Of a DNA stretch of 64,000 bases, positions 52,088 through 54,684 are shown piece by piece. Location of the stretch: assembly GCF_014836425.1 (NCBI RefSeq), contig NZ_JACSQW010000008.1, positions 1 through 64,000 on the forward strand, written 5' to 3'. Position 1 is the first letter of the stretch, and each line of letters starts with the position of its first letter. The position numbers were made by a program, and so were the translations under genes. The notes beneath the pieces were generated by a model, which saw nothing but the letters and a program-made list of their open reading frames with translations, had not been told where the DNA came from and ran no database searches. This DNA is from Limosilactobacillus avistercoris (GTDB lineage Bacteria; Bacillota; Bacilli; Lactobacillales; Lactobacillaceae).

Positions 52088-53104
52088 ATGGCAAACCAGG
52101 ATGAACATGAAATTGTTTCTGGTGAGACAACAGGAAAGGAAGAGGCAGCAATTGAACTAACACTTCGTCCACAAACACTAGCTGATTATATTGGCCAAAC
52201 AAAAATCAAGCACGAATTAAGTGTTTATATTAAGGCAGCTAAAGAACGTGAAGAAGCTTTAGATCATGTCCTTTTATATGGCCCACCAGGTCTAGGGAAA
52301 ACTACCCTAGCGATGGTAATTGCAAATGAATTAGGAGTAAACATTAAAACCACCAGTGGTCCGGCAATTGAAAAGCCGGGTGATTTGGTTGCACTGTTAA
52401 ATGAGCTAAAACCAGGTGATGTTTTGTTTATTGACGAAATTCACCGGTTACCAAAAATGGTTGAAGAAATGCTATATTCTGCCATGGAGGATTACTATAT
52501 TGATATTGTGATTGGTGAAGGACCAACAGCCCATCCTGTTCATTTTCCTTTACCGCCATTCACCTTAATTGGGGCTACTACTCGTGCAGGGATGTTGTCT
52601 GCACCATTGCGGGATCGTTTTGGAATTGTGGAACACATGAACTACTATAACCAGGATGAATTAACTAAGATTATTTTTCGTTCTGCAAAAATTTTCCAAA
52701 CCAAAATTGAGGATGAAGGTGCTCACGAATTAGCCCTTCGCTCTCGGGGAACGCCACGGATTGCTAACCGACTATTAAAGCGGGTGCGTGACTTTGCTCA
52801 GGTTGCGGGAAAAGGTTCAATTGATTCGGTTAGTGTTCAACGGGCACTTAAATTGCTTCAAGTTGATGATCAGGGACTTGATGAGATTGACCGTAAACTT
52901 CTGCTAACAATGATCAACTACTATAATGGCGGACCAGTTGGCCTAAAAACGATTGCTGCTAATATTGGTGAAGAGAAATCAACAATTGAAGAAATGTATG
53001 AGCCATACCTTCTCCAGATTGGTTATTTAACAAGAACGGCACGGGGACGAATGGTGACTGCAGCAGCCTATAAGCATTTAGGCTTAGAGTACCCAACAAA
53101 GTGA
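52088..53104 (+). CDS. ruvB: Holliday junction branch migration ATPase RuvB
   Basis: Hexameric AAA+ motor driving branch migration. The 338 residues show [12 protein letters not shown], Walker [13 protein letters not shown] (about 64-75), Walker [10 protein letters not shown] (about 115-123), the family's [21 protein letters not shown] with arginine finger, and a C-terminal winged helix ([17 protein letters not shown]). Start ATG at 52088 with AAAGGAGGG upstream. The stop overlaps an in-frame GTG of the next gene by four bases. Confidence 0.97.
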
Positions 53105-53112
53105 GGCAGGCA

Positions 53113-54135
53113 ATGAGTAAATATTTTGAAATTGAGCGTTCTAAGAATGGTTTGCGGGCCGGAAAGTTAGTTCTCGATAATTTCCAGTTAGCAACGCCAT
53201 TACTTGTTCATTCAGGAAGGGTAAACCATTACTTGCTTCCAAAACAAGTCTGGGAAACAAACACGCGGGCCCTGTATTATGATCCAGTTATTTTTGCAGA
53301 GGAATTGGGGAAAAAGCAGTTAAGTGACTTACCTAATTTACGTCAATTGTTCGCCTGGAAAGGGGCATTGTTTACCACTTCTGGAGCAGAAGAAATAGCA
53401 AGATTAGCTAAACCACGAGGGTATAAAGCTAATGGGGTTAATTTTCGTTTGCCAAATGAAGGACAGTTAATAAGCCTATCTCCTAAAGAAGCGCTTCAGC
53501 TACAAGAACATTTAGGAGCCAATATAAGTGAACAACTTTATCGGGCGGTTGATTATTATGCGCCAGTTGATGACTTAACTGCCGGAGTAGAATTGACTAA
53601 TCGGTGGGCTATTAACGCTGATAATTCACTTTTTCCGGTCACGGGCGGTGGATTAAAGGAGCTTCATCGTAAGAGTCTTGCTTCATTAGAGGGACAGTTT
53701 GGCTACCGAATTACCCAAATAGAACAGATTGACACGATTATGGAAGTAAAACGCAATCTTTCAACTGTTATAAAAATGCTACCATCTGAAAGCCTTCGGG
53801 TAACTAAGGTCAAGGCTAATCTTGAGCAAGTAATAGCTGCATTGTCTGCAGGAATTGATGTTATTTATTCTGACGTTGCTGTTCATGAGGCAGTAATGGG
53901 GAATGTATTGGTAGCAGATGGAAAACGACTTAACTTTGATCATGCCCACTTTGCTAATGACTGGGGACCAATTGATCAAAATTGTGGTTGTCCTGTATGT
54001 ACTAGTCATTATTCACGGGCATTCCTTCATTACCTTGCAAAAACTGATTCGTCACAATATTTGAATTTGATTTTGGAACATAATTTATTTTGGCTTAATC
54101 AATTTATTATTAAGTTTCGTTCCCAGATTAATTGA
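53113..54135 (+). CDS. Tgt-like protein (tRNA-guanine transglycosylase paralogue) lacking canonical catalytic residues
   Basis: 340 residues, colinear with Tgt from end to end. The zinc site survives: CGCPVC (first Cys codon 53983, residue 291) then His in LEHNLFWL, matching CxCxxC...H of Tgt. Matching but altered segments: FAWKGALFTTSGAEE for MxWDxPILTDSGGFQ (base Asp becomes Thr); VTGGGLKELHRKSL for IVQGGxxxDLRxxS (Gln lost); AGIDVIYSDVAVHEAVMGN for RGVDMFDCVLPTRxxRNG (nucleophile Asp aligns with Tyr ungapped). The GVGSP motif is absent. It occupies the ruvB-[queA-tgt]-yajC slot and no queA is present. A non-catalytic or changed role is inferred. ATG 53113 follows GAGG. Confidence 0.8.
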   Translation: MSKYFEIERSKNGLRAGKLVLDNFQLATPLLVHSGRVNHYLLPKQVWETNTRALYYDPVIFAEELGKKQLSDLPNLRQLFAWKGALFTTSGAEEIARLAKPRGYKANGVNFRLPNEGQLISLSPKEALQLQEHLGANISEQLYRAVDYYAPVDDLTAGVELTNRWAINADNSLFPVTGGGLKELHRKSLASLEGQFGYRITQIEQIDTIMEVKRNLSTVIKMLPSESLRVTKVKANLEQVIAALSAGIDVIYSDVAVHEAVMGNVLVADGKRLNFDHAHFANDWGPIDQNCGCPVCTSHYSRAFLHYLAKTDSSQYLNLILEHNLFWLNQFIIKFRSQIN

Positions 54136-54225: not shown

Positions 54226-54684
54226 GTGAACGGGTTAAACTTTTTAAACCTCGGTGCTGCCTCAAGCAGTGCCAGCAGTTATTCTGGAATGATTTTGATC
54301 ATTCTGATGATTGCTTTAATGTATTTCTTTATGATTCGCCCACAACAAAAGCAACGGAAGCAACATCAAGATATGATGAGTCAGTTGCACAAGGGTGATG
54401 AAGTTGTCACTATTGGTCGGATGCACGGGAAGATTGATTCAATTAACCATGAAGACCGGACAGTTACTTTAGACTGTGAAGGAATTTACTTAACCTTTGA
54501 TATGGTTGCAATTGCGCGGGTCGTTAAGCCCGCTACTGATGCAAAAGATAAGGCTGAAAGTAAGGAAAACAAGGAATCATCTAAAAAGGATGAAGCTAGC
54601 TCAGATGCAAAAGAAGAACTAGCTGCATCTGATTCTGCCAAGAGTGAAGCACCAGCATCAGATGCTGATAATGACGAAAAGTAA
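54226..54684 (+). CDS. yajC: Preprotein translocase subunit YajC
   Basis: Small accessory protein of the Sec translocon. The 152 residues have one N-terminal transmembrane helix (about 22-40: MILIILMIALMYFFMIRPQQ), followed by the conserved RPQQKQRKQHQDM and KGDEVVTIGRMHGKI segments. After about residue 105 an extra acidic, Lys/Ser/Ala-rich tail is present, longer than in the 85-110-residue norm. Start GTG at 54226 with AGGGATGG upstream. It normally follows tgt, supporting the orthology of the preceding gene by position. Confidence 0.93.
   Translation: MNGLNFLNLGAASSSASSYSGMILIILMIALMYFFMIRPQQKQRKQHQDMMSQLHKGDEVVTIGRMHGKIDSINHEDRTVTLDCEGIYLTFDMVAIARVVKPATDAKDKAESKENKESSKKDEASSDAKEELAASDSAKSEAPASDADNDEK

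Follow-up and report, generated by a model that had tools for sequence, protein, structure and literature searches.

The window analysed here, a 64,000-nucleotide stretch of Limosilactobacillus avistercoris DNA, raises the question of why a gene of the tRNA-guanine transglycosylase (Tgt) family, hereafter X, stands intact between ruvB and yajC with the catalytic residues of Tgt replaced. The gene and its setting are as follows:

52,088-53,104, + strand: ruvB, the upstream neighbour of X, whose stop overlaps the ribosome-binding region of X
53,101, + strand: alternative GTG start of X, overlapping the ruvB stop
53,113-54,135, + strand: X, divergent Tgt-family protein of 340 amino acids with an ATG start (open reading frame and profile matches)
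54,226-54,684, + strand: yajC, the downstream neighbour of X

A GAGG lies 5' of the X start and overlaps the ruvB stop codon. The Pfam TGT profile (PF01702) covers residues 14-339 of X (149.4 bits, E = 1.8e-43), in line with the full-length colinearity proposed by an earlier, sequence-only reading of this DNA, and this match, together with the predicted fold, places X in the TGT superfamily. The NCBIfam Tgt superfamily model gave 136.7 bits, above its cutoff of 47.6, and the Tgt equivalog TIGR00430 gave 129.5 bits, below its curated cutoff of 306.75. In the whole source genome (1.8 Mb, listed as 99.99% complete), X is the sole PF01702 match, with no second Tgt homologue, and QueA was not found. 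The coordinates and this empty QueA search bear out the ruvB-X-yajC slot and the missing queA of the sequence-only reading, whereas its term "paralogue" is wrong, X being the only Tgt copy and in the ancestral position. As the one Tgt gene of this genome, and at the native locus, X is a diverged orthologue. Its nearest named relative, from L. fastidiosus, shares 86% identity, and the relatives retrieved by a genome contig search all belong to Limosilactobacillus (18 of 18, L. reuteri included).

Across 50 Limosilactobacillus genomes, X occurs in 46, with one PF01702 match each (36-288 bits), always as a single open frame and always in the ruvB-X-yajC slot; an in-frame start codon stands at most 20 nt from the ruvB stop in 43 of these 46 genes. 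The stops met in five of the 46 matches (G006, G049, G038, G042 and G008) lie beyond the open reading frame, where the alignment ends. The genome search suggested with the sequence-only reading, for canonical tgt, queA and queuosine transporters, returned X as the sole Tgt, while none of the 50 genomes yielded QueA, QueT or a YhhQ-family protein over cutoff (there was one weak YhhQ match, in G044). No genome of the 50 would thus count as a queuosine user by the presence of QueA or of a known transporter of queuosine precursors, as far as QueA, QueT and YhhQ are concerned. The preQ1-II riboswitch was found in 0 of 50 genomes, with the stricter filters of large searches. This salvage search covered two transporter families (QueT and YhhQ) and one preQ1 riboswitch class (preQ1-II).

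Among the four genomes without a match, G047 (L095, 99% complete) carries at about 2480-2720 ruvB and then yajC, separated by a spacer of about 100 nt, X being cleanly deleted. As this lineage deleted it, X is not indispensable everywhere. In G025 (L096), the sister of G047 in the ruvB tree, the contig ends just past ruvB, in sequence resembling the G047 spacer. The other two, G010 and G021, are incomplete genomes, and a true RuvB was found in neither.

Within our family, order and phylum samples, a sole, strongly diverged Tgt was observed in Limosilactobacillus alone. The family sample comprised 151 genomes, 145 of them outside the genus, and QueA was searched in it as in the genus sample. 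Tgt is present in 112 of these 145 genomes (475-551 bits) and absent from 33, and QueA has exactly the same distribution (112 with both, 33 with neither); a second, sub-cutoff Tgt match of 18 bits was seen in 2 of the 112. In the order sample (148 genomes), the 133 genomes outside the genus with a Tgt match all score at least 487 bits. In the phylum sample (119 genomes, each at least 90% complete), 116 genomes besides the source have a Tgt match, the main copy reaching at least 517 bits except in G428, where the gene is split between contigs (311-312 bits per piece); one genome shows a sub-cutoff match of 20 bits. Three genomes of this phylum encode, besides their canonical Tgt, an additional Tgt-family copy of 299-334 bits (G355:C64:3362-4423, G360:C25:8208-9272 and G400:C1:48169-49248).

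The positions of X that correspond to the catalytic and zinc-binding residues of Tgt are given below; D102, D156, Q203, D280, R286 and R289 follow the numbering of Z. mobilis Tgt.

53,377-53,379, + strand: T89, at the position of Tgt D102 (TDSGGFQ replaced by TTSGAEE; alignments)
53,539-53,541, + strand: Y143, at the position of Tgt D156 (alignments)
53,641-53,643, + strand: T177, at the position of Tgt Q203 (VQGG replaced by VTGGG; alignments)
53,866-53,868, + strand: Y252, at the position of the Tgt nucleophile D280 (alignments)
53,983-54,000, + strand: CGCPVC, with the zinc ligands C291, C293 and C296 kept
54,079-54,081, + strand: H323, the fourth zinc ligand, kept

We take D156 and Q203 of Z. 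mobilis Tgt to serve in base recognition, and R286 and R289 to be tRNA contacts. Compared with the Tgt family of TIGR00430, X of the window lacks both the D280/D102 and the D156/Q203 pairs and keeps the CxCxxC...H zinc site, which had rightly been read as intact from residue 291 (C291, C293, C296 and H323). In the portions available of the sources, the nucleophile of Z. mobilis Tgt is Asp280, the residue that acts on the incoming base is Asp102 (PMC6165067), and Glu235 and residue 158 are further residues of importance around the site (PMC3660597). The sequence-only reading had named what would overturn it, namely an Asp of YSDV at the nucleophile site. The series GVDMFDC, GVDLIDSD(LA), GIDVIYSD(VA), in which relatives have DSD where the window has YSD, shows that Y252 corresponds to the nucleophile, D254 being another residue. 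The realignment of YSDV that would restore the nucleophile was rejected, as relatives carry both residues as DSD, and the Asp of YSDV corresponds to the second of the two Asp in DSD, located two residues past the nucleophile.

The claim that every catalytic position is altered is true of X of the window and of its close relatives but not genus-wide, the loss being graded. Of the 46 X proteins, 16 have D102, 13 have D156, 7 have Q203 and 25 have D280, and none keeps all four together. Twelve, including the L. reuteri group and L. panis, retain the three Asp (D102, D156 and D280) with Q203 changed, and in these twelve the GGFQ segment is altered, partly or wholly. All the zinc ligands are present in 35 of 46; the other 11 proteins also lack D280. 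The presumed tRNA-contact positions R286 and R289 are kept in 8 and 6 of 46, respectively. By a rough count, X retains 20 of 201 canonical-invariant columns at a level of at least 80%; an unusual outgroup row distorts the column weights (effective n about 2), and the canonical frequencies are approximate. In a tree of representative X proteins, close relatives differ at D102 and D156, while all 15 rows on the reuteri/oris/kribbianus side have D280. The zinc ligands are present in L057 and missing from its sister L060, the two proteins being otherwise alignable, which suggests from the alignment more than one loss of zinc. The top-scoring members of the genus, L020-L022 (G026, G002 and G032; 268-288 bits), keep Gln203 and have Glu at the nucleophile position; they possibly represent an intermediate state.

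To what extent X is still maintained was assessed by pairwise dN/dS (Nei-Gojobori) across orthologues, as had been recommended with the sequence-only reading; the values argue against decay. Between the window and L. fastidiosus, dN/dS is 0.162 for X (95% bootstrap 0.108-0.233) and 0.029 for ruvB. Of 11 pairs tried, nine from several clades were usable, with dN/dS of 0.101-0.238, an upper confidence limit below 0.5 in all nine, and dS of 0.08-0.73 in eight and 1.56 in one; ruvB gave 0.006-0.036 over the same pairs. The two excluded pairs were L061-L062 (dN/dS 0.085 at a dS of 2.97, near saturation) and L058-L059 (saturated). A wider set, whose pairs overlap in lineage, gave medians of 0.177 for X (43 usable of 44 pairs) and 0.027 for ruvB (44 pairs), so that X evolves several-fold faster than ruvB; among the 40 of the 44 pairs listed, those involving L057 have dN/dS of 0.52-0.81 at a near-saturated distance. 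When the window gene was mutated neutrally, one of 2000 runs preserved an open frame at 0.22 substitutions per site, and none of 2000 did so at 0.44. Pseudogenes are expected to show broken frames or a dN/dS near 1; for X we found 46 of 46 frames open and 0.10-0.24. The low dN/dS, the open frames and the new near-invariant residues described below support the proposal of a maintained, repurposed protein.

X also carries a genus-specific motif:

53,551-53,577, + strand: DYYAPVDDL, residues 147-155 (alignments and structure model)

In the AlphaFold2 model of X from the window, built with 19 family sequences (pLDDT 93.6, pTM 0.92), this motif adjoins the old D156 position, between strand 138-140 and helix 152-165. 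The model matched Z. mobilis Tgt in Foldseek with a query-normalised TM of 0.89, and the zinc-less X of L. ingluviei (300 aa) was predicted with a pLDDT of 91.8 and a TM of about 0.85 to the same Tgt structures. The string PVDD is present in 42 of 46 X proteins and in none of 30 canonical rows, these being the best-scoring 30 of the 112 outside-genus Tgts and not a random draw. Its exceptions are G026 and G002 (YAPYDY), G032 (YATHDY) and L. fastidiosus (SPIDD); in L020-L022, without PVDD, the motif is half formed. The invariant residues of 19 aligned X proteins include W82, K100, G108, Y148, Y149, P151, D153, D154, L155, G178, G180, E211, R214, D249 and N324. Among all 46, D153, E211, R214, G178, G180, G108 and N324 are invariant, and P151 (45), K100 (44), Y148 (44), D154 (43), G84 (43) and V152 (42) nearly so. 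Several of these residues are common to canonical Tgt, since G108, G178, G180, E211, D249 and N324 occur in nearly all 30 rows, and others are partly so (D153 is Asp in 24 rows, K100 is Lys in 13 and R214 is Arg in 13). By comparison, G84, A150, P151, V152 and D154 are novel, with 0 of 30 canonical rows in the listed counts. P151 and D154 are, by these alignments, the clearest novelties of the YYAPVDDL stretch.

As to the origin of X, eleven groups among the 34 rows shared by the X and ruvB trees recur in both, the pattern expected from vertical descent. Both trees were quick searches, whose drawn roots carry no evidence, and they differ in their deep branches and in the placement of the L051/L055/L056 group. 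Horizontal replacement of tgt was rejected on the strength of the eleven common groups. A phage or defence origin was also rejected, X having no PHROGs match and a sole, weak PADLOC match, LmuB (E = 0.019). The tblastn search with X hit 17 phage and 52 plasmid records, all below 60% identity. The five phage and five plasmid matches listed have 24.9-27.1% identity, include no close relative of X and, in the four cases annotated under the match, are all tgt.

Similarly to bacterial Tgt (TIGR00430 and the Z. mobilis structures), X has homology over its full length, the predicted fold (TM 0.89), the gene slot and, in 35 of 46 proteins, the zinc ligands. It differs from Tgt in that its catalytic and base-binding residues are replaced, its score lies far under the equivalog cutoff, its YYAPVDDL motif is new and QueA was not found in its genus. 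DpdA, the phage 7-deazaguanine DNA transglycosylase, belongs to the same superfamily, whereas X has no PHROGs match and sits in the chromosomal tgt slot. The parallel drawn by the sequence-only reading was with eukaryotic QTRT2, which is a non-catalytic Tgt homologue, as X probably is too, and keeps zinc. QTRT2 is called a non-catalytic subunit in the part available of PMC6412123, and its nucleophile position is Glu according to that of PMC6165067, as it is in X of G026, G002 and G032. However, QTRT2 has the catalytic QTRT1 as its partner, whereas the genome of X has no second Tgt. A QTRT2-like partner role was rejected, with one Tgt per genome: because a second Tgt was found in 0 of 50 genus genomes, such a role is unlikely. 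The X family profile scores 236 bits with bacterial Tgt, 199 with QTRT1 and 67 with QTRT2 (its best stretch there being in the C-terminal part only), which indicates that X lost catalysis independently of QTRT2.

From the computed tgt ancestry, gene slot, replacement of the catalytic residues, purifying selection and new motif, and from the predicted fold, we infer with moderate confidence that X is a Tgt descendant which has lost base exchange and has been kept for a new binding-type role. For the window clade, to judge by its residues, the absence of base exchange is highly probable. The gut-dwelling genus Limosilactobacillus appears to have given up queuosine and to have kept a strongly altered Tgt descendant under selection, which probably now does a different job. 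In this reading, X descends vertically from the tgt of the Limosilactobacillus ancestor, in a lineage that lost QueA and in which the searched queuosine-salvage genes are missing. Unlike in the sampled queuosine-less relatives, where it was deleted, tgt was retained, and would have lost the exchange of the base at G34 and gained another job. The predicted fold stayed while the base-binding and nucleophile positions drifted, and YYAPVDDL became fixed beside the old D156 position, at the barrel mouth. There, X would most likely bind a small ligand or a partner, and would not exchange a tRNA base. A more specific version, which we hold only tentatively, is a stand-alone function acquired after the loss of queuosine, as an enzyme or a sensor with a putative site in the YYAPVDDL patch, outlasting the catalytic residues and, in several lineages, zinc.

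We prefer the binding role to a new catalytic site, a tRNA chaperone, slow decay or residual exchange. That X acts as an enzyme by another mechanism, as the sequence-only reading also envisaged, is possible. In particular, D153/D154 and Y148/Y149, perhaps with K100/R214, might form a putative active site for a nucleotide, a sugar or another substrate. The conserved polar residues include two adjacent acids, one of which (D154) is new relative to canonical Tgt, the motif stands in the modelled loop between strand 138-140 and helix 152-165, and D153 (46 of 46) and D154 (43 of 46) persist also in proteins that have lost zinc and the former catalytic Asp. However, D153 is already Asp in 24 of 30 canonical rows, position 154 is Tyr in G026, G002 and G032, and the pathway context consists of ruvB and yajC alone, so that we consider this new enzyme rather unlikely. 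RNA binding, the other suggestion of the sequence-only reading, is not borne out by the R286 and R289 positions (8 and 6 of 46), although X is no more acidic than canonical Tgt (median net charge of -1 vs -4.5), which leaves no charge argument against it. The same changes argue against a simple carry-over of a tRNA-folding, chaperone-like role that Tgt would already have had independently of catalysis. Such a role, for which the fold retained in the models and the charge would speak, has to face the few canonical-invariant columns kept (20 of 201 at 80% or more, with rough weights) and the loss of the zinc site in 11 of 46 proteins. TruB and TrmA are still enzymes, whereas X lacks the catalytic and the presumed RNA-contact residues. 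They nevertheless provide the precedent of tRNA-modifying enzymes of catalysis-independent value, being tRNA chaperones independent of catalysis in the part available of PMC12503941; for X, we regard this role as distinctly improbable.

Could X instead be a relic in slow decay, whose frame has stayed intact through chance or because its translation is coupled to that of ruvB and yajC? Its faster evolution than that of ruvB, the L057 pairs (0.52-0.81, near-saturated, among the 40 listed), the short open frames of some members (283-333 aa) and the clean deletion in G047 speak for decay. Yet nine pairs drawn from several clades have dN/dS of 0.10-0.24 with upper limits under 0.5, and P151 (45 of 46) and D154 (43 of 46) are conserved. 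Coupling would leave the amino acids unconserved, and G047 manages without X. Decay thus seems very improbable to us. As 12 of 46 proteins have the three Asp and 25 of 46 the nucleophile Asp, residual chemistry is conceivable in those clades, and X might there still exchange bases, its specificity for base or RNA having changed, at least among the three-Asp members such as the L. reuteri group and L. panis. Against this stand the change of Q203 in 12 of 12 and of GGFQ, partly or wholly, the lack of all three Asp in the window clade and the failure of QueA, QueT and YhhQ-family genes to appear over cutoff in the 50 genomes; of the readings considered, we give this one the least credence. The binding-type role remains the one that we favour.

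A diverged Limosilactobacillus Tgt was not found in the literature searched, nor was a stand-alone non-catalytic bacterial Tgt homologue, most subscription papers and all bioRxiv preprints being outside the scope of both searches. In the portions available, the non-catalytic Tgt homologue named in the literature is a eukaryotic subunit with a catalytic partner (PMC6412123, PMC6165067), and PMC12506659, PMC11703503 and PMC3962124 have no bearing on a diverged Limosilactobacillus Tgt. Many Lactobacillus species lack all queuosine enzymes, Tgt included, according to the part available of PMC6593275, and a survey, in its available part, takes the presence of tgt as the ability to use queuosine and calls Lactobacillus sp. 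queuosine-sink bacteria (PMC10570037). If X is inactive, this tgt-based call (PMC10570037, available part) would fail for Limosilactobacillus. More generally, a tgt homologue alone need not mean queuosine use. X offers a natural experiment on what stays useful in a tRNA-modifying enzyme after the modification is lost, and it spans dozens of species, including L. reuteri, which is amenable to genetic work.

The short X members mentioned above, L061-L064 (G012, G016, G015 and G008), score 36-49 bits with the Tgt profile, and annotation pipelines may miss or misname them.
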